Shown: positions 8,815 to 49,367, numbered from the stretch's first letter. The stretch is DNA of 64,000 bases from Halorussus pelagicus (GCF_004087835.1 NZ_CP035119.1:868001-932000); one strand, 5' to 3'. Numbers and translations: made by a program. Notes: a model not told the origin generated them from the letters alone.

Positions 8815-9085
8815 CGCCCGTGTTTTCTGAGGGTTGAGGATAATCCCCGTATAGCTTGGGGTTTGGGGTCTCGATCGCCGGTTTAGCAGGTTAGAGTCGA
8901 ACATGACTCATGTTGCGGGTTGCGCTTGCTGGTGGTTTTGCGAGAGTCGGCGCGGTGAAAGTGGGGGTTCAGCGTGGGGTGGAGGAGTTGACGAAAAAGG
9001 ATGTGTTGTGCTTGGGGTGCCTGCAGCGCAAGCACTTTGGCGGGTCGTCTGATCGCCCAATCCGGATTCACCGGCCAGCTGCGCG
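8811..9085. other. Non-coding stretch at left end of element
   Basis: About 275 bp between the tRNA and the first broken gene. I see no open frame with haloarchaeal protein character, no repeats beyond the attachment core and no clear promoter. It may hold the remains of element sequence or recombination arm sites. Confidence 0.5.
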
Positions 9086-9788
9086 CTAGAATCCTGTGAG
9101 CGTCCCCTGCTCACCGTCACTACCACCATCCTCCTGGTCACTGCCATGGTCGTTGTTCTCGCCCTGGTCACCACGAACAACATGTGCGGCCTCTTCCAGG
9201 GACTCCACTTCCATTATGTCCGCCCGGACCCGGTCATCAACCTCTTCCTCGTAGTGAGTGCGTTGCTGCCCGCAGATCCTTCGTTCACCCGCCGCTCAAC
9301 TTTCTGATCGAGGGCATCACGGAGCTCATCCACGGGCGGGAGGCCGTCGCCGATCTTCACGAACAGTATTTGCCCGCGATACGCGGTGCCGTCGTCTTCA
9401 ATGAGGTGCATGTCCTGCCCGCTGCGGAGCGCCTTGTAGTCGCCGTGCACGTCCACGCCCGTGATATCGTCTGGCAACACGGGGTCCCGTCGTCCATCCA
9501 GTGCCGACTCGTTCCAGTCGGTCGATCGTCTGGGGGGACATTGTCGTCAACATCGAGTCCTGCGAGCGCGTCGCGGATCGCCGCGTGTGCTTCGCCGCGG
9601 TCGTCATTTGCACTGACGCACTCGGTCGCCATGAGCGCCTCGTTAGGAGTGTACTTGTACTGGGCTGTGACGGTCGCTCGCGCTGGGTTGGCTGCGACCT
9701 TGACATCTCCGTCGCCGTCTGCACAGTTGATGGTGATTTTGACATACTGGTTTGCGTCGTGTTTTATCGAGTCGATGCTCCGGGTCAT
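9086..9788 (-). pseudogene. Broken element gene, two frameshifts
   Basis: The coding signal runs on the minus strand from ATG 9788 but changes frame twice. Part one reads from MTRSIDSIKHDANQYVKI to LDVDDNV; it moves frame near the six-C run at about 9531-9536 and continues as DWNESALDGRRDPVLPDD, GVDVHGDYKALRSGQDMH and LPPVDELRDALDQKVERR; a second shift near 9270-9280 leads to THYEEEVDDRVRADIMEV and a tail ending GEQGTLTGF then TAG at 9086-9088. Each shift equals the loss of one base. Joined, the product would be about 233 residues, acidic, with a disordered C terminus, of no family I recognise. It follows a second broken gene, so this is either a decayed viral/plasmid segment or a base-calling problem. 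Confidence 0.7.
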
Positions 9789-36576: not shown

Positions 36577-37215
36577 ATGGACGTACTCGTAGCCGGTTCG
36601 CACGGACAGGTCGGCCAGCACGTCACCCGGATGCTGGCCGAGAGCGACCACGAGGTTCGCGGGATGGTCCGCGACGAGTCACAACTGTCCGACATCGAGG
36701 CGCTCGGTGCCGAGGCGGTTCTCGCGGACGTGACCGAAGATGTCACCGACGCGGTCCGAGGCTGTGACGCCGTCGTGTTCGCCGCAGGGTCCGGCGGCGA
36801 GGACGTGTGGGGCGTTGACCGAGACGGTGCGATAAACCTCATCGAGACCGCCGAGGAGCAGACCGCCGACCGATTCGTCATGCTCAGTTCCATCAACGCC
36901 GACTCGCCCGAGGAGAGTCCCGAGGAGCTACGCGAGTACCTGAACGCGAAGGCCGAGGCCGACGAACGACTCCGCGAGAGCAGTTTGACCTACACCGTTG
37001 TCCGTCCGGGCGCGCTGACCAACGAGGCGGGAACCGGTCGGATTCGAACCGGCGCGGACCTCGACAGGAAAGAAAGCGAGATTCCGCGCGAGGACGTGGC
37101 GCGAACGCTCGTCGCCGCGCTTCCGATGGAGAGTACCTACGGGCGAACCTTCGAGGTGCTAGCCGGTGACGAACCGATAGAATCGTCGCTGGAGAGTCCG
37201 GTGAGCGAGGAGTGA
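36577..37215 (+). CDS. NAD(P)H-binding atypical SDR protein
   Basis: A 212-residue NmrA/YwnB-type Rossmann protein. It starts MDVLVAGSHGQVGQHVTRML (GxxGxxG dinucleotide site), then VLADVTEDVTDAVRGCDAVV, FAAGSGGEDVWGVDRDGAIN, VMLSSINADSPEESPEEL and TYTVVRPGALTNEAGTG. The YxxxK dyad of classical SDRs is not obvious (YLNAKAEAD is present). It is the first gene to the right of the element and converges with lanM (23 bp apart). Substrate unknown. Confidence 0.88.
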   Translation: MDVLVAGSHGQVGQHVTRMLAESDHEVRGMVRDESQLSDIEALGAEAVLADVTEDVTDAVRGCDAVVFAAGSGGEDVWGVDRDGAINLIETAEEQTADRFVMLSSINADSPEESPEELREYLNAKAEADERLRESSLTYTVVRPGALTNEAGTGRIRTGADLDRKESEIPREDVARTLVAALPMESTYGRTFEVLAGDEPIESSLESPVSEE

Positions 37216-37237
37216 ATTCTGCCGGTCTTTCGGACGA

Positions 37238-40200
37238 CTACTCCCAGAGTGTTACGCACGGCAACTGCGGGTCGTCAAGTCGGAGCAGGGTGTAGCCGAC
37301 ACCGGTCTCGCCCGTGAACAGCGACGGATTGAGCCAGTTGTCGGTCCGTTTTGGAACCGTGAGCCGTCCGTTCTCGCGGGCGCGTCGAACCGTCGCGGCC
37401 GCCAGTCGTCGCGCGTCCTCGGAGTAACGCGAGTCGTCCAGCGTCCGCCCGGCCTCGAAGAGGAAATCGACCTGCGAGAAGTTCCCGCAACAGAGGTGGT
37501 CGAAGTCTTCAAGCGCGCGGGTGTCCGTCCCGGCGAGCGCCCGCTCGGCGTCCTCCAGAAACGCCTCATCGCCAGTCGCGTCGTACATCCCGAGCCGCGA
37601 GAGTCCGACTCCCGACCGACCGCCGCACCACCCCGTCACGAACTCCGCGTCGATGTCCGGGCGATAATCCCGCCAGTTCCGTTTTTCGGGCGCGTACGCG
37701 GCGTCCTCGTAGGCGAGCGCGTCGGTCGCGGCGTCTCGAAACCGCTCGTCGCCGGTCGCTCCGAAGAGCCTCGTTAGCGCGTACGCGATGCCCGCAGTGC
37801 CGTGGGCCATCCCCGTCAGCACGCGGTCGCCAGCGACCGGCTGCCAGACGCGCGCGCCGTCCACTTCGACGCGCTCGGCGAGCAGTCGCTCCCCGGCGGC
37901 AGTCGCGCGTTCGAGAAGGTCGTCGTCGCCGGTCCGGTCGTAGAGCGCGAGCAGGGCCAACAGCGCCCCGGCGGTTCCGCTCTGGACCTCGGTCGGGGCG
38001 TCGCCCGCGAACCGTTCGGCGGTCAACAGCGACGCGCTCCGGCGGGCCGCCTCGGTGAACCGGTCGGCGTCGAGCAGGTCGCCGAGGACGGCGAACCCGT
38101 AGACGTACGACCCCATTCCGGTTCCGGCACCGACATCGAGACCCGCGAGCGCGTCGGTGTCGGCGTTGAGGTCTCGCGCCACCGGCGACGCCACCTCCAC
38201 CGCGAACTCGCGGCACTGCGCGTCGCCGGTCACCTCCGCGAGCGCCCCGCAGAACGTCGCAATGCCGAGCCGACCACCGTAGAAGTCGTCGCCGACCGCG
38301 GCGAGTTCGACGCCACCAGCGCCGCGCTCGCAGCGGTGCCACGTCGGGGTTCCATCGGGCGCTCGCGTGGCCGCACCGCGAACCCGCTCGAAAATCGCTC
38401 GCGCCTCTCGGCGCGCGTCGGCGTCCGCGAGGGGGTCGGTCTCCTCGGGCGAGGCGTCGGCGACTGCTCCCGAAGCATCGCCGGATGGAGAGACCGGCGA
38501 CCCGTACGCCGTCCTGATAAGGTCGAGCTGTTCGCCGAGGTCTGACTCTGAGAAGCCATCGATTCGACGCCGAACCTGTTCGAGCGGGCTAGCGTCGAAC
38601 AGGTCGGCCACCGGCGACCCGTCGTGTCGGAGCGTCGTGTCGTCGGCCCGCACGGAAAACCGGGGCGTGTCCGCTCGCCAGAGCGCGGTGCGCTCGGCCT
38701 CGTACACCGGCCAGAGCCGTCGGTCGGTGTCGCCAGCGGCGAACGGTTCGGCGAGTCGTTCCACCTTGCATCCCAACGTTCGGCCGTCTCGGAGGCATTC
38801 GGGCGTCGTCAACGGCTGTAACACCGACTGGTAGGTCTGGGACGGTCGATAGACGTACCGGAGTTCCGCGTCGGCGAACGCCGCGACCGGACCGTCGTCG
38901 GCGAGGAGCGCGCCCTCGTTGTCGAGCAGAAACCGGTAGGTCTCGGCGAACCCGTCGGCAAGCGTTTCGCCGTACTCGTGAGGCTCGACCCGCGAACCGT
39001 CGAATATCGGGAGACTGTCGCCCGAAACGGTCACGCTTTCCTCGTACCGGAGTTCCATCACGTCGGTGTTGACGCGCTCGAACGTGGGAACCTGAACGCC
39101 GGTCTGTTCGCCCGCCGGAGCGTCGAACCCCGCGACGTTCTGTACGTCGTCGCTCGGGTCGTCTTCGGGCACCATCCCCGTCCGCAGGACCGTGTTCTGG
39201 CGGCGCTCAGGCAACTCGCTGGCCGGTGGTATCGCCGACCGCGGAGCGCGCGGATGCATGAGCGTTTCGAGGTCAACGACGACCGGATGCTCGCCCGCGG
39301 CGACGACGTTCTCGATGTGTCCGTCAACGAAGTTCAGCGCGTAGAGCAGACAGAGTACCGACCCGGCGCGGCGGTAGTATCGGCCGATGGCGGCCGCGGA
39401 CGAACACGGCTCGGAGTCGGCCCACGCCATCCACCCGTACCCTTCGCGCGTGAGACAGTCCAACGCGGCGAGGTCTTCGAGGTCGGACTCGGCGTTCACC
39501 CACGACACGAGGTCGGCGAACCGCGCCTCGGGTCGAACGTCGCGGGGCTTGTAGGCGAGTTCGACCCCCGACTCGAACGTCAGGTGGAAGACGACGCGCC
39601 CGCCTTGATGGTGGTCGCCGCGGTAATCGAGGTCCGTGACAGTCCCGAGCGACGACCCTGCGCCGAACGTCTCGGTCAGCGCCTCCCAGTCGTCGCGCAG
39701 GCGCTCGCAAAACGTCTCGACCGCGTCGCGCCACTGGTCGGTCAGCGTGACGACCAGTCGCGCGAGCGTCGAATACTCCTCGAAGAGCGCCCGGAGTTCG
39801 CCCTCGTGCATCTCGGCGACGAACTGGTCGTAGTACCGCCGCGGCGAGTCGGGCATCTCGGGATCGTCCGCGAACGCGAGTTCGCGGTCCTGAGACGCGA
39901 GGAAGGTCTTGAACTCGATGAACAGCGCGTGGGCCGCGACCTTCCCAAGACGGTCGAGTAACCAGCGTTCGAGGCTCGACCGCGCTCGGTCCGAGAGGCA
40001 ATCGGCCGACGCCGCCCACTCGACTCGCTCGGACGCGAACGCCACGACCCGAGCCAGCAACTCCACGAACGGTACGTCGTCCGCGGCGTCGGCCAGCGGC
40101 GGCGGGTCGCTCGGTTCGCGCGACTCCACGTAGTCGAGCAGTTCGCCGAGCGTCCCGACCCACTCGGGACGCGACTGCTCGTCGGGAATCGCGCGACTGT

Positions 40201-40417
40201 GAAGTCTCTGGCGGCACGTTTCGAGCGATTCGCCTTCGATGTCGAGGCGACGCTCGAAGGCCTCGGGGTCGTCGGCAACGTGTTCGCGCCACTGTGCAAT
40301 CCACTCGTCGCCGTCCGGGTCGGTCGTTTTCGAGTCGTCGGTCGGCGTCCGAAGTCGTTCGCCGACGCCTCGCGCACGGGCGGCGATGCGTCGTCGGTCC
40401 GAATTGTTCGGGGACAT
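37238..40417 (-). CDS. lanM: Class II lanthipeptide synthetase LanM
   Basis: A 1059-residue bifunctional enzyme. Residues about 200-650 are the kinase-like dehydratase: GVELAYKPRDVRPEARF (ATP-site Lys), NFVDGHIENVVAAGEHPVVV and DLETLMHPRAP (catalytic and metal acids). Residues about 710-1059 are the LanC-like cyclase: GxG repeats, TGMAHGTAGIAYALTRLFG, FVTGWCGGRSGVGL and HLCCGNFSQVDFLFEAG. Zinc ligands are Cys931, Cys976 and Cys977; the usual CHG is CCG, as in the all-Cys subgroup. It would phosphorylate and eliminate Ser/Thr in the precursor core and close thioether rings on Cys. Both precursor genes lie upstream on the same strand (97 bp gap). No peptidase-transporter is fused or adjacent. 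Confidence 0.95.
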   Translation of the reverse strand: MSPNNSDRRRIAARARGVGERLRTPTDDSKTTDPDGDEWIAQWREHVADDPEAFERRLDIEGESLETCRQRLHSRAIPDEQSRPEWVGTLGELLDYVESREPSDPPPLADAADDVPFVELLARVVAFASERVEWAASADCLSDRARSSLERWLLDRLGKVAAHALFIEFKTFLASQDRELAFADDPEMPDSPRRYYDQFVAEMHEGELRALFEEYSTLARLVVTLTDQWRDAVETFCERLRDDWEALTETFGAGSSLGTVTDLDYRGDHHQGGRVVFHLTFESGVELAYKPRDVRPEARFADLVSWVNAESDLEDLAALDCLTREGYGWMAWADSEPCSSAAAIGRYYRRAGSVLCLLYALNFVDGHIENVVAAGEHPVVVDLETLMHPRAPRSAIPPASELPERRQNTVLRTGMVPEDDPSDDVQNVAGFDAPAGEQTGVQVPTFERVNTDVMELRYEESVTVSGDSLPIFDGSRVEPHEYGETLADGFAETYRFLLDNEGALLADDGPVAAFADAELRYVYRPSQTYQSVLQPLTTPECLRDGRTLGCKVERLAEPFAAGDTDRRLWPVYEAERTALWRADTPRFSVRADDTTLRHDGSPVADLFDASPLEQVRRRIDGFSESDLGEQLDLIRTAYGSPVSPSGDASGAVADASPEETDPLADADARREARAIFERVRGAATRAPDGTPTWHRCERGAGGVELAAVGDDFYGGRLGIATFCGALAEVTGDAQCREFAVEVASPVARDLNADTDALAGLDVGAGTGMGSYVYGFAVLGDLLDADRFTEAARRSASLLTAERFAGDAPTEVQSGTAGALLALLALYDRTGDDDLLERATAAGERLLAERVEVDGARVWQPVAGDRVLTGMAHGTAGIAYALTRLFGATGDERFRDAATDALAYEDAAYAPEKRNWRDYRPDIDAEFVTGWCGGRSGVGLSRLGMYDATGDEAFLEDAERALAGTDTRALEDFDHLCCGNFSQVDFLFEAGRTLDDSRYSEDARRLAAATVRRARENGRLTVPKRTDNWLNPSLFTGETGVGYTLLRLDDPQLPCVTLWE

Positions 40418-40514
40418 GTGGTCGAATGCCTACAGAATAAACGTCGATTGGTGTTCGTCTGCACGTTCCGACTCGGGTGCGGTTCTCGGTGCCTACGGAA
40501 GGAAACAGGCCGTA

Positions 40515-40634
40515 TCAGTAGCTGCCACAGCCCATAGTGAGCGTCGGTGGGATGTACTCGGCCGTCTGCTCGTCGGGGTCGTCGCGGGAATACTGGTTCT
40601 CGAACTGTGCCTTGACGTTGTTGTTTGCGGACAT
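40515..40634 (-). CDS. Lanthipeptide precursor 1 (39 residues)
   Basis: ATG 40634 to TGA 40515-40517. The leader runs MSANNNVKAQFENQYSRDDP (residues 1-20) then DEQTAEY; the core begins about residue 28: IPPTLTMGCGSY. It has one Cys (36) and Thr31, Thr33 and Ser38 as dehydration sites; a Thr33-Cys36 or Thr31-Cys36 ring is possible. The leader shares VKAQFE-x-x-Y-x-R-x-x-P with precursor 2 nearly residue for residue, which shows selection on the leader and supports both as substrates of the same LanM. No GG or GA cleavage motif is present; a processing protease must act elsewhere (a cut before IPP is an inference). Confidence 0.85.
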   Translation of the reverse strand: MSANNNVKAQFENQYSRDDPDEQTAEYIPPTLTMGCGSY

Positions 40635-40660
40635 TGCACATGCAACTGCCCCACATACTT

Positions 40661-40670
40661 ACATAAATTT
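40661..40670 (-). promoter_or_regulatory. TATA-like element of precursor 1
   Basis: AAATTTATGT on the minus strand lies 27-36 nt before the ATG at 40634, in an otherwise AT-rich stretch (40640-40710). The leader sequence just before the ATG (GGGCA...CATGTGCA) resembles that of precursor 2. Confidence 0.5.
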
Positions 40671-40843
40671 TTTCATTTACATCTACACATTTTCTCAAAA
40701 GTAATTTATTACGGACGGTGGACTGACGGTTTCACTTCGCGTCCCGAGGATTCGCGGATGAGATTTACGGACGAACGGTCAGGAGAAAGTCTTCGCGGCC
40801 GAAGTAGTCGGCGTCGGGCGCGATGCCGCGCCGGGAACCGCGG

Positions 40844-40963
40844 TCAGTGGCCGCAGTTGTACAGCGTCGGCGGTGGAATCTCGTCGCCCTTCTTCACTGT
40901 GGGTTCCTCGCGGGCGTACTCTTTTTCGAACTGGGCTTTCACGTTATCGGTGTTTGTGGGCAT
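40844..40963 (-). CDS. Lanthipeptide precursor 2 (39 residues)
   Basis: ATG 40963 to TGA 40844-40846. Leader MPTNTDNVKAQFEKEYAREE then PTVKKGDE; core about IPPPTLYNCGH. One Cys (37) and one core Thr (33) allow a single Thr33-Cys37 methyllanthionine ring of the form T-L-Y-N-C, with a free G-H tail. Charge distribution and spacing equal precursor 1, but the core differs at most positions, as expected for two natural products from one enzyme. The start has a strong TATA box. Confidence 0.85.
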   Translation of the reverse strand: MPTNTDNVKAQFEKEYAREEPTVKKGDEIPPPTLYNCGH

Positions 40964-40986
40964 TACACATGGTTGTAGTGCCCACC

Positions 40987-41003
40987 AATATATAAAATTT
41001 ATC
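40987..41003 (-). promoter_or_regulatory. TATA box of precursor 2
   Basis: AAATTTTATATATTGG on the minus strand lies about 26-38 nt before the ATG at 40963, which predicts a short-leader transcript. It is the strongest TATA element of the locus. Confidence 0.6.
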
Positions 41004-41224
41004 CTCGTAGTGGCTGTACGATTGTACTTGCGTCCGGTCCAGACGGGAAGCGTAACGAAGCAGGTGTATGCAACGACGAGCGACCGTGACGAGTCGTCGA
41101 AGCTAGCTTCAGACGTGACCAAAGCGGTGGCCAAAATCACGTCTCCGAACCGACGACTACGCTCGACGCCGGTTTCGCCCCACGGGTCACGACCCTTTTA
41201 CCCGCCGCGCTCCGAGTGAGACCG

Positions 41225-42433: not shown

Positions 42434-43666
42434 TTATTCCCGCGATAGAACTGCCTTCGCGCCCGTCTTCAGAATTTCTAGTCCGGTCGCGGCGTCCGCG
42501 AGGTCGATGTACTCGTCTACGGCGTGGGCCTGCGCGAGATTCCCCGGTCCCCAGATGATGGCGGGCGTTCCGCGGGCGACGAACTCGCGGGCGTCGGTCG
42601 CGGCCTCCAGTCCCCACGGGTCAGCGGGCGCGTCGGCCAGTTTCGCGGAGAGACCGCGGAACCGCTCGGCGAGCGGATGGTCGGGCGAGATTCCGGCGGC
42701 GGCGTAGTGTTCGACCAGCGAGCAGTCGGTCTCGACGCCAGCCTCGCGCTCGACGGTTGCGAGCAACGATTCGATTTCGTCCTCAACCGTGGAAAACGTC
42801 TCGTCGGGCAGAATACGCCGGTCGAGCAGGAACTCCGCGCGGCCGGGGAGAACCGCCATGTTCGAGTCGGTTCCGGCCTCGAACTCGGTGACGGTCGCGT
42901 ACGCCCGGCCGACGAGGGGGTCCTCGCGCCCGAGAAGGCGGTCGTCGTACTCGTCTATCGCGTCGAGGACGGGTCGCGCGGCGTCGATGGCGTTGGTGCC
43001 TTGGTCGGGGCGACTCGCGTGGGAGGCCGACCCCTCGACGCCGACTCGGAAGGTGGCGACGCCCTTTCCGCTCGTTCCGACTCGGAAATCAGTAGGTTCC
43101 AGCACGACCGCACAATCCCCTCCGTAGCCCTCTTCGAGAAGCGTCCGGGTTCCGGGCTGACCGGTCTCCTCGCCCATCGCGCCGTGAAACACGATGGACC
43201 CGTCGAGGTCCCCGGACTCGATGTCGGGCGTGAGGTCCCTGACCGTCAGCATGGCGAGCGCGAGATTCGTCTTCATGTCGGCGCTCCCCCGGCCGTAGAG
43301 TCGGCCCTCCGAGACGGTTCCCGCGAAGGGGTCGTACTCCCACCGCTCTGGGTCGCCCGCTGGCACCACGTCGAGGTGGCCGTTCAGGACGAACGTCGTG
43401 GCGTCGCGGGTCGAGTCGTCGCTCTCGCTTTCGTCGCCGCTCGCGCCCTCGCTGTCGGCCCGCTCTCGGGAGTCGTCGCCGACCCACGCGACCACCTGCG
43501 CGCGCTCGGCGCTCGGTTTCTCCACGAGGTGGGACTCTACGGCGCGCTCGGCGAACCAGTCCGCGACGAACTCGGCACAGGGTCGCTCGTCGCCCGGCGG
43601 GTTCTCCGTGGGGATTCGGACGAGTTCAGCCGCGAGGTCGGTCAGTTCGTCCCGTGCGGTCGTCAT
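42434..43666 (-). CDS. M20 family metallopeptidase (ArgE/DapE-like)
   Basis: A 410-residue zinc-dependent amidohydrolase. Metal and catalytic signatures: NGHLDVVPAGDPERWEYDPF (His, Asp), GRGSADMKTNLALAM (bridging Asp), GAMGEETGQPGTRTLLEEG (Glu-Glu) and a C-terminal GPGNLAQAHAVDEYIDLADA (His). An acidic insert lies after residue 60 (SEGASGDESESDDSTRDAT). The family removes acyl or succinyl groups or cleaves dipeptides; the substrate cannot be read. It converges with the membrane-protein gene. Confidence 0.92.
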   Translation of the reverse strand: MTTARDELTDLAAELVRIPTENPPGDERPCAEFVADWFAERAVESHLVEKPSAERAQVVAWVGDDSRERADSEGASGDESESDDSTRDATTFVLNGHLDVVPAGDPERWEYDPFAGTVSEGRLYGRGSADMKTNLALAMLTVRDLTPDIESGDLDGSIVFHGAMGEETGQPGTRTLLEEGYGGDCAVVLEPTDFRVGTSGKGVATFRVGVEGSASHASRPDQGTNAIDAARPVLDAIDEYDDRLLGREDPLVGRAYATVTEFEAGTDSNMAVLPGRAEFLLDRRILPDETFSTVEDEIESLLATVEREAGVETDCSLVEHYAAAGISPDHPLAERFRGLSAKLADAPADPWGLEAATDAREFVARGTPAIIWGPGNLAQAHAVDEYIDLADAATGLEILKTGAKAVLSRE

Positions 43667-47589: not shown

Positions 47590-48582
47590 ATGACTGCCGC
47601 CATCGAAGTCGAGAACCTTCGCAAGCAGTACGAGGGTGTGCAGGCGCTCGACGGCGTCTCGCTGTCAGTTCCCGAGGGGAGTTTCTTCGGGTTGCTCGGG
47701 CCGAACGGCGCGGGCAAGACCACCTTTATCAATATCCTCGTGGGACTCGTCCGGCGGTCCGGCGGCCGGGCCGAGGTGTTCGGCCACGACGTGGACGACG
47801 ACTACCGCGAGGCCCGCGACGCCATCGGTCTCGCGCCCCAAGAGTTCAACGTCGATCACTTCTTCCCGGTTCGGGAGGTCTTGGAGCACAAGGCTGGCTA
47901 CCACGGGATTCCGGCCGACGAGGCCAGCGAGCGCGCCGACGAGGTGCTGAAGCAGGTCGGCATCTACGACAAGCGAGACACCCGATTCAACTGGCTCTCC
48001 GGAGGCATGAAGCGCCGGTTCATGTTGGCGCGGGCGCTCATCACCGACCCCGACCTGCTGATTCTGGACGAACCGACCGCAGGCGTGGACGTGCAACTGC
48101 GCCACGACCTCTGGGACCTCATCACCGAACTCAACGAGTCGGGGACGACGATTCTGCTCACGACTCACTACATCGAGGAGGCCGAACGCCTCTGCGACGA
48201 GGTGGCGATTCTCGACTCCGGAAATCTACTGACCGTGGCGACACCCGAGGAACTGATGGACCGCGGACCGGACGAGATTCGGGTGACGCTCCGGGACGCT
48301 CCCGCGAGCGTGCCCGACTTGCCGATGCTCTCAGGCGCTGGCGCGACCGACGGTGAGGTCGAGAGCGTCGAACTCGACGGCGACCAGTTGGTCGTCACCG
48401 CGACGCAGGGCGGACTCGTCGCGCCCGACCTCGTGCGGGCGCTCGACCGCGCAGGTCTCGAAATCGTGGATTTGGGCATCTCTCGGACCTCGCTCGAAGA
48501 GGTGTTCGTGGACATGACCCGAGAGGGCGGGAGCGACCAGTCCGCGGAAGCAGTCGCGGCCGACGGAGGTGTCTCGGAGTGA
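47590..48582 (+). CDS. ABC transporter ATP-binding protein
   Basis: A 330-residue ATPase of the drug/Nod/DrrA type exporter class. Walker A LGPNGAGKTTFINIL; Q-loop LAPQEFNVDHF; signature NWLSGGMKRRFMLARAL (LSGGM); Walker B LLILDEPTAGVDVQLRHDL; H-loop TTHYIEEAERLCDEV. The C-terminal 90 residues form the regulatory tail of DrrA-like proteins. Its end overlaps the permease start by 4 bp (GTGA). Substrate unknown. Confidence 0.95.
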   Translation: MTAAIEVENLRKQYEGVQALDGVSLSVPEGSFFGLLGPNGAGKTTFINILVGLVRRSGGRAEVFGHDVDDDYREARDAIGLAPQEFNVDHFFPVREVLEHKAGYHGIPADEASERADEVLKQVGIYDKRDTRFNWLSGGMKRRFMLARALITDPDLLILDEPTAGVDVQLRHDLWDLITELNESGTTILLTTHYIEEAERLCDEVAILDSGNLLTVATPEELMDRGPDEIRVTLRDAPASVPDLPMLSGAGATDGEVESVELDGDQLVVTATQGGLVAPDLVRALDRAGLEIVDLGISRTSLEEVFVDMTREGGSDQSAEAVAADGGVSE

Positions 48583-49367
48583 GTTTCCCCGGACTCACCG
48601 GGTTCAAGACGCTCGCGCGCCGCGAGATTCTGCGCTTCCTCCGGCGGCCCCGAAACACGTTCATTCCGCCGTTCGTCACCAACGTCCTCTACTTCTCGGT
48701 GTTCGGGGTCATCCTCGGGGACCGCGTGGGTGAAATCAGCATCGGCGGTGGCGGCGACCCGATTCCCTACATCCTGTTCATCCTGCCGGGGTTGGTCGTC
48801 CTCGGAGCCATCTCGAACGCCTTCGAGAACGCCTCCTTTTCGGTCTTTCACGGGCGCTGGAACGACTACATCGAGGAGACGCTCACGTCGCCGATGTCCT
48901 ACTCGCGGATGGTCGCGGCGTACATCGTCGCGGGCGCGACCCGTGGCCTGCTCGTCGGGTCGCTCATCGCGGTCATCGGCGCGTTCTTCACCTCCGTCGG
49001 CGTCGCAAAACCGCTCTACCTCGCGGCGTTCGGACTGGTCGTCAGCCTGCTATTCGCCAGTTTCGGCGTCGTGGTCGGTCTCTGGGCCGACGACTGGGAC
49101 AACCTCACGATGATGAATCAGTTCATCGTCCGGCCGCTGGTCTTCTTCGGCGGCGTGTTCTACGCCATCCGGGAACTCCCCTCGCCGTATCAGGAACTCT
49201 CGATGCTGAACCCGATGGTCTACATGGTCAACGGCGTCCGATACGGCTTTCTGGGCGTCTCGGAGGTGGACCCCAACTGGTCGCTCGCGGTGCTGTCTGC
49301 GCTGACCGCGGCCGTCCTCGCGCTCGACATCGCGCTGTTCAAGCGCGGGTACGGACTGACCGACTGA
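48579..49367 (+). CDS. ABC-2 type permease
   Basis: A 262-residue membrane component of the exporter encoded by the previous gene. GTG start overlaps its stop. Six hydrophobic segments, among them IPYILFILPGLVVLGAISNA, LYLAAFGLVVSLLFASFGVV and the family loop FIVRPLVFFGGVFYAIRELP. NPMVYMVNGVRYGFLGVSE is the ABC-2 signature near the end. It and the ATPase form a complete half-transporter pair. It lies 7 kb from the lanthipeptide locus, so a role there is not supported. Confidence 0.93.
   Translation: MSFPGLTGFKTLARREILRFLRRPRNTFIPPFVTNVLYFSVFGVILGDRVGEISIGGGGDPIPYILFILPGLVVLGAISNAFENASFSVFHGRWNDYIEETLTSPMSYSRMVAAYIVAGATRGLLVGSLIAVIGAFFTSVGVAKPLYLAAFGLVVSLLFASFGVVVGLWADDWDNLTMMNQFIVRPLVFFGGVFYAIRELPSPYQELSMLNPMVYMVNGVRYGFLGVSEVDPNWSLAVLSALTAAVLALDIALFKRGYGLTD

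Follow-up and report, generated by a model that had tools for sequence, protein, structure and literature searches.

A compact class II lanthipeptide locus with duplicated single-cysteine precursors in Halorussus pelagicus

Introduction

A 64,000-nucleotide stretch of the Halorussus pelagicus genome (GCF_004087835.1, NZ_CP035119.1:868001-932000; hereafter the window, whose first nucleotide is position 1 for all coordinates given without a locus name) carries on its minus strand a gene for a class II lanthipeptide synthetase (LanM), with two short paralogous precursor genes, P1 and P2, upstream of it. We consider it very probable that the three genes form a minimal, self-contained class II lanthipeptide locus, whose duplicated precursors are turned into one-ring peptides with the help of host functions for processing and export. 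The predicted products are, most likely, two very small peptides with a single methyllanthionine (MeLan) ring each.

The isolation of archaeal class II lanthipeptides goes back to 2023 (PMC10105419), and a study of 2025 described 24 lanthipeptides (PMC12144867). The locus belongs to this already described family, one-ring members included, and is not a new kind of system. Indeed, as 26 Halorussus LanMs were counted in the latter study (PMC12144867), the enzyme described here may already be among those listed there. What is distinctive is the combination of clean one-Cys twin precursors, a leader homologous to that of a proven substrate and a sharply bounded cassette.

Two duplicated precursor genes

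P1 (40515..40634) and P2 (40844..40963), both on the minus strand, encode peptides of 39 residues each (MSANNNVKAQFENQYSRDDPDEQTAEYIPPTLTMGCGSY and MPTNTDNVKAQFEKEYAREEPTVKKGDEIPPPTLYNCGH, respectively). The two peptides have their N-terminal leader half in common – with the leader motif VKAQFENQYSRDDP at 40575..40616 in P1 and VKAQFEKEYAREEP at 40901..40942 in P2 – and differ in their cores, which correspond approximately to IPPTLTMGCGSY in P1 and IPPPTLYNCGH in P2. A TATA-like box on the same strand starts exactly 33 nt upstream of the ATG of either gene (TTTATGTA at 40660..40667 for P1 and TTTATATA at 40989..40996 for P2). The initial annotation had proposed two 39-codon genes upstream of, and on the same strand as, a complete LanM, each with its own TATA box and with a Thr 3–5 residues before the Cys; all of this was borne out, the Thr residues being T33 at −4 in P2 and both T31 at −5 and T33 at −3 in P1.

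The P1 and P2 peptides align with an E value of 2e-11, and their similarity extends into the promoter, both genes having the TATA-like box and a CATGTGyAATG start region; they are a duplication, TATA box included. Within the leader, a stretch of 16 codons shows 12 base differences between the two genes, distributed as 3, 0 and 9 over codon positions 1, 2 and 3. Such a bias towards the third position (one-sided P 0.004) is expected of a conserved peptide.

A leader profile was built from ten relatives only, with the window’s own sequences excluded, and run against the window’s complete set of 1,583 stop-to-stop frames. Only P2 (E 3.4e-8, 29.6 bits) and P1 (E 2e-7, 27.2 bits) were recovered, the next frame having an E value of 1.9, and the best score in 20 shuffled windows was 8 bits. 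The relatives in the profile had first been found by similarity to P1 and P2 and were then each checked for their position near a LanM. A second profile, covering the precursor family as a whole, gave eight strong matches in 118 genomes (E below 1e-14), all of them at LanM loci, followed by a match with E 0.004; this profile contains the matched sequences themselves, so the independent test is the leave-out scan of the window. In the same 118-genome search, no further copy of the leader was found elsewhere in the H. pelagicus genome.

These results bear on the reading that the short frames are chance or regulatory open reading frames and that the LanM acts on a remote precursor. The frames are indeed very short and lie in AT-rich spacers. 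Nevertheless, their leave-out E values (rounded, 3e-8 and 2e-7), the third-position bias and the presence of the leader at other LanM loci speak against chance, and the lack of another leader copy in the genome speaks against a remote precursor, so that this reading is most improbable. To judge from these comparisons of sequence, P1 and P2 are real genes. They combine a conserved leader, common to known LanAs, with a varying core that contains Cys and Ser/Thr, and they adjoin a LanM.

The LanM enzyme

The lanM gene (37238..40417, minus strand) encodes a full-length protein of 1059 residues that is matched by the class II subfamily model TIGR03897 (750 bits against a cut-off of 304; E 2.4e-225). 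A DUF4135 dehydratase domain (PF13575, E 5e-104; residues 215–589, encoded at 38651..39775, minus strand) and a LANC_like cyclase domain (PF05147, E 6e-52; residues 708–1052, encoded at 37262..38296, minus strand) are fused in one chain. The whole genome contains four LanMs.

The enzyme could be aligned to the solved structures of LicM2 (6st5) and CylM (5dzt). For CylM, we take the catalytic residues to be D252, H254, K274, D347, H349, N352, D364, R506 and T512. In the alignment to LicM2 and CylM, the dehydratase residues D268, H270, K290, D365, H367, N370, D382 and R520 are retained, and the position of CylM T512 is occupied by S526, with Thr in the seven nearest relatives. The cyclase zinc ligands C931 (in a WC motif), C976 and C977 are likewise retained, together with the catalytic His, H872; the site is of the CCG type, with three Cys ligands. 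The residue pattern supports a catalytically intact enzyme.

Predicted rings and proposed pathway

In the pathway that we propose, each precursor gene would be transcribed from its own promoter and translated into a 39-residue peptide, whose shared N-terminal half, (V/L)KAQFExxYxRxxP, would act as the leader by which the peptide docks on LanM. The enzyme’s dehydratase half would then phosphorylate Thr in the C-terminal core and eliminate the phosphate, and the zinc-dependent cyclase half would add the only Cys to the dehydrobutyrine so formed, closing one MeLan ring. Dehydration and ring closure are attributed to LanM because they are the established function of such enzymes and its active sites appear intact.

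Since the cores vary among relatives, the ring position in P2 is predicted by elimination: Thr33 is the sole Ser or Thr near Cys37, which almost forces a Thr33–Cys37 ring. Two single-Cys relatives from the same LanM group, at L037 (QMTVAFC) and L085 (HMTIAFC), also have a Thr four residues before the Cys, which lends modest further backing to this assignment. In P1, where T31 (−5), T33 (−3) and S38 (+2) all surround C36, the sequence is compatible with either a Thr33–Cys36 or a Thr31–Cys36 ring, with the remaining Thr, or Ser38, perhaps left in dehydrated form. With one Cys and one nearby Thr, P2 offers a simple substrate for archaeal LanM chemistry in high salt.

With just one Cys per peptide, one might also imagine that the LanM dehydrates without cyclising, or that the Cys forms a disulfide-linked dimer, either between the P1 and P2 products or between two identical ones. 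The sibling LanMs at L036 and L087 have lost their cyclase zinc ligands, so ring-less products may exist in the clade of the window LanM. However, this LanM retains C931, C976, C977 and H872, and a single-Cys archaeal core, CTRYSF of sallan, has been proven to yield a product with one ring; we regard the uncyclised or dimeric outcome as decidedly unlikely.

The presence of paired paralogues with a common leader and different cores would also fit a two-component lantibiotic, in which the P1 and P2 products each need the other. Multiple precursors occur at L044, L051 and L087 as well, but the duplicates at L087 and L044 have near-identical cores, which shows that several precursors at one locus need not mean two-component action. 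Moreover, the P1 and P2 cores can form at most one thioether ring each, and neither is similar to a known alpha/beta pair. Two-component action is thus unlikely.

The mature product would probably be a small antagonistic or regulatory peptide directed against other haloarchaea. Published archaeal lanthipeptides related to it inhibit haloarchaea or alter motility, so one of these effects is the default guess for its role.

Relatives of the precursors and of LanM

The initial annotation had named conservation of the short frames beside related LanMs as the point on which it could fail, and the leader, in the form (V/L)KAxFExxYxRxxP, was found next to the closest LanMs in other genera. In G019, it lies directly upstream of the LanM and is followed by the core DSCGFNSCNTQLQ. 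In G035, it occurs at two LanM loci, one with the core DSCGSESCNDGVSE and the other with twin precursors, and Natronobiforma cellulositropha (G178) has three precursors with this leader, ending in DSCWSSSC.

In G007, the leader SDVKAEIETEYARD precedes the core CSCYTRICCDIDS, which is the core of archalan gamma. This genome appears to be that of H. salinus, given its identical core sequences for archalan beta, archalan gamma and sallan. As archalan gamma is a characterised product of H. salinus YJ-37-H (PMC12144867), one member of the leader family of P1 and P2 is a substrate established by experiment.

When 51 archaeal LanMs are placed in a tree, the window LanM groups with those of L035, L036, L087, L043, L086, L085 and L037, as well as with the long-branched L097 (SH-aLRT 91); the LanM of L044 falls in a neighbouring group. 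All precursors that enter the leader profile come from one of these two groups. Among the nearest LanMs, with 41-46% identity, are those of L035 (G019), L036 (G035, the metagenome-assembled genome QS_1_68_20) and L087 (N. cellulositropha). Their loci resemble the one described here in having a (V/L)KxxFExxYARxEP-type leader, but differ in their two-Cys cores (DSCxxxSC) and in the addition of an MFS_3 exporter and a luciferase-like oxidoreductase; furthermore, the L036 and L087 LanMs do not have the cyclase zinc ligands that the window LanM retains.

Among characterised systems, archalan gamma (BGC aln-gamma; PMC12144867) is made by an archaeal class II LanM from the same tree group and has a leader, SDVKAEIETEYARD, homologous to that of P1 and P2. 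In contrast to the single Cys of P1 and P2, however, its core has several Cys residues, forming two thioether rings and a disulfide, and its precursor gene lies ~2.8 kb from the LanM on the opposite strand (L043), whereas P1 and P2 share the strand of theirs. Sallan A1/A2 (BGC sal, H. salinus; PMC12144867) are of the same tiny one-ring type as predicted here, with the single-Cys core CTRYSF; sallan A2, with six residues and one ring, is according to its authors the smallest natural lanthipeptide (PMC12144867). The sallan ring, however, joins Cys1 to Ser5, with Cys before Ser and a lanthionine (Lan), unlike the Thr-before-Cys MeLan predicted for P2, the sallan LanM (L054) belongs to a different tree clade and the leader is unrelated to that of P1 and P2. 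Archalan alpha/beta, litlan, medlan, larlan, ciblan and pellan (PMC10105419, PMC12144867) are also haloarchaeal, class II and derived from short precursors, but have at least two rings and different leaders and cores.

Cassette boundaries

The LanM gene, P1, P2 and their spacers make up a cassette at 37216..41145 that is absent from the matching site in the sister Halorussus genome G009. DNA similarity to G009 ends at 37215 and picks up again at 41146, two points that only 9 bp separate in G009; the 3,930 bp present in H. pelagicus contain the LanM, the two precursors and spacers only, and the genes that flank them are direct neighbours in G009. The slot measures about 1.9–2.4 kb in G004, G006, G013 and G016, where it does not hold the cassette either, and it is therefore variable. 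So clean a boundary makes visible the set of genes that was gained with the pathway, with leader removal and export as implied host functions – a point that bears on an open question for archaeal lanthipeptides.

A bolder interpretation would be that the three genes form a unit, gained and lost together and free of any exporter, protease or immunity gene, that makes two different single-MeLan peptides acting as a pair or as regulators inside the producer. We think this unlikely; if true, the unit would rank with the smallest complete lanthipeptide systems.

An island of low GC3 in the window (10387-36498), containing HsdM and HsdR (type I restriction), a UvrD-like helicase and a tyrosine integrase, ends just before the LanM neighbourhood.

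Export and leader processing

No gene for an exporter or leader peptidase was found inside the cassette, and no C39 (LanT-type) peptidase (PF03412) was matched in the whole genome, where positive controls were detected; the claim that the locus has no adjacent LanT or LanP is thereby upheld. With no dedicated C39-domain LanT, we class the locus simply as a class II lanthipeptide locus, not as a canonical class II lantibiotic cluster. Leader removal and export would be carried out by host proteins encoded elsewhere; extra-cluster proteases have been proposed for the maturation of some archaeal lanthipeptides (PMC10105419, PMC12144867).

ABC-type ATPases of one similarity group occur at 27 of the 55 LanM loci examined, the locus described here being without an exporter. 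An ABC-2 transporter at 47590-49367, considered because its type flanks many archaeal LanMs, was rejected as a dedicated exporter, since it belongs to the core genes of the genus (found in 15 of 18 genomes at 84–100% identity) and is present also in G009, which has no cassette at this site. An M20 peptidase (42434-43666) was not adopted as leader peptidase; like a DUF5684 gene, it lies outside the cassette, and DNA matching both genes occurs at the corresponding position of the sister genome that has no cassette there. The partners of the sibling loci were also sought in the H. pelagicus genome, with only distant proteins (E 5e-8 or weaker) found for the luciferase-like enzyme and no MFS match for the MFS_3 exporter.

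Observations at other LanM loci

Zinc ligands of the cyclase domain have been lost, for example by a change of CCG to YAG, in the LanMs at L036:5236-8418, L087:5000-8335, L053:5493-6845 and L097:5203-8289, the first two being near siblings of the window LanM. All four adjoin an MFS_3 exporter and/or a luciferase-like (PF00296) oxidoreductase. Zinc-ligand loss was seen at 4 of 6 loci with such a partner versus 3 of about 48 others (Fisher P about 0.001, with relatedness ignored). These loci may represent pathways of dehydration without ring formation, in which, as a guess, the luciferase-like enzyme might reduce the dehydro residues. They may be more surprising than the cassette itself.

At some loci (L052:4937-8208, L053:5493-8692, L104:5096-8269 and L044:4268-7409), the dehydratase and the cyclase of LanM lie in two reading frames, with the break in a similar position each time and due either to a natural split or to a frameshift. 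The split LanM of L053, from another Halorussus, adjoins a pair of short single-Cys precursors (L053:8664-8780 and 9082-9204), whose cores end in WCSITA and WCTITATKE, with Cys before Ser/Thr as in sallan.

Finally, the H. pelagicus genome itself contains a precursor with the core HRDGCGFTCSPFSSW beside another of its LanMs (L041:9144-9293; about position 2913143 of C1). Close copies of this precursor occur in G007, G009 and G079, and a second lanthipeptide pathway is therefore likely.
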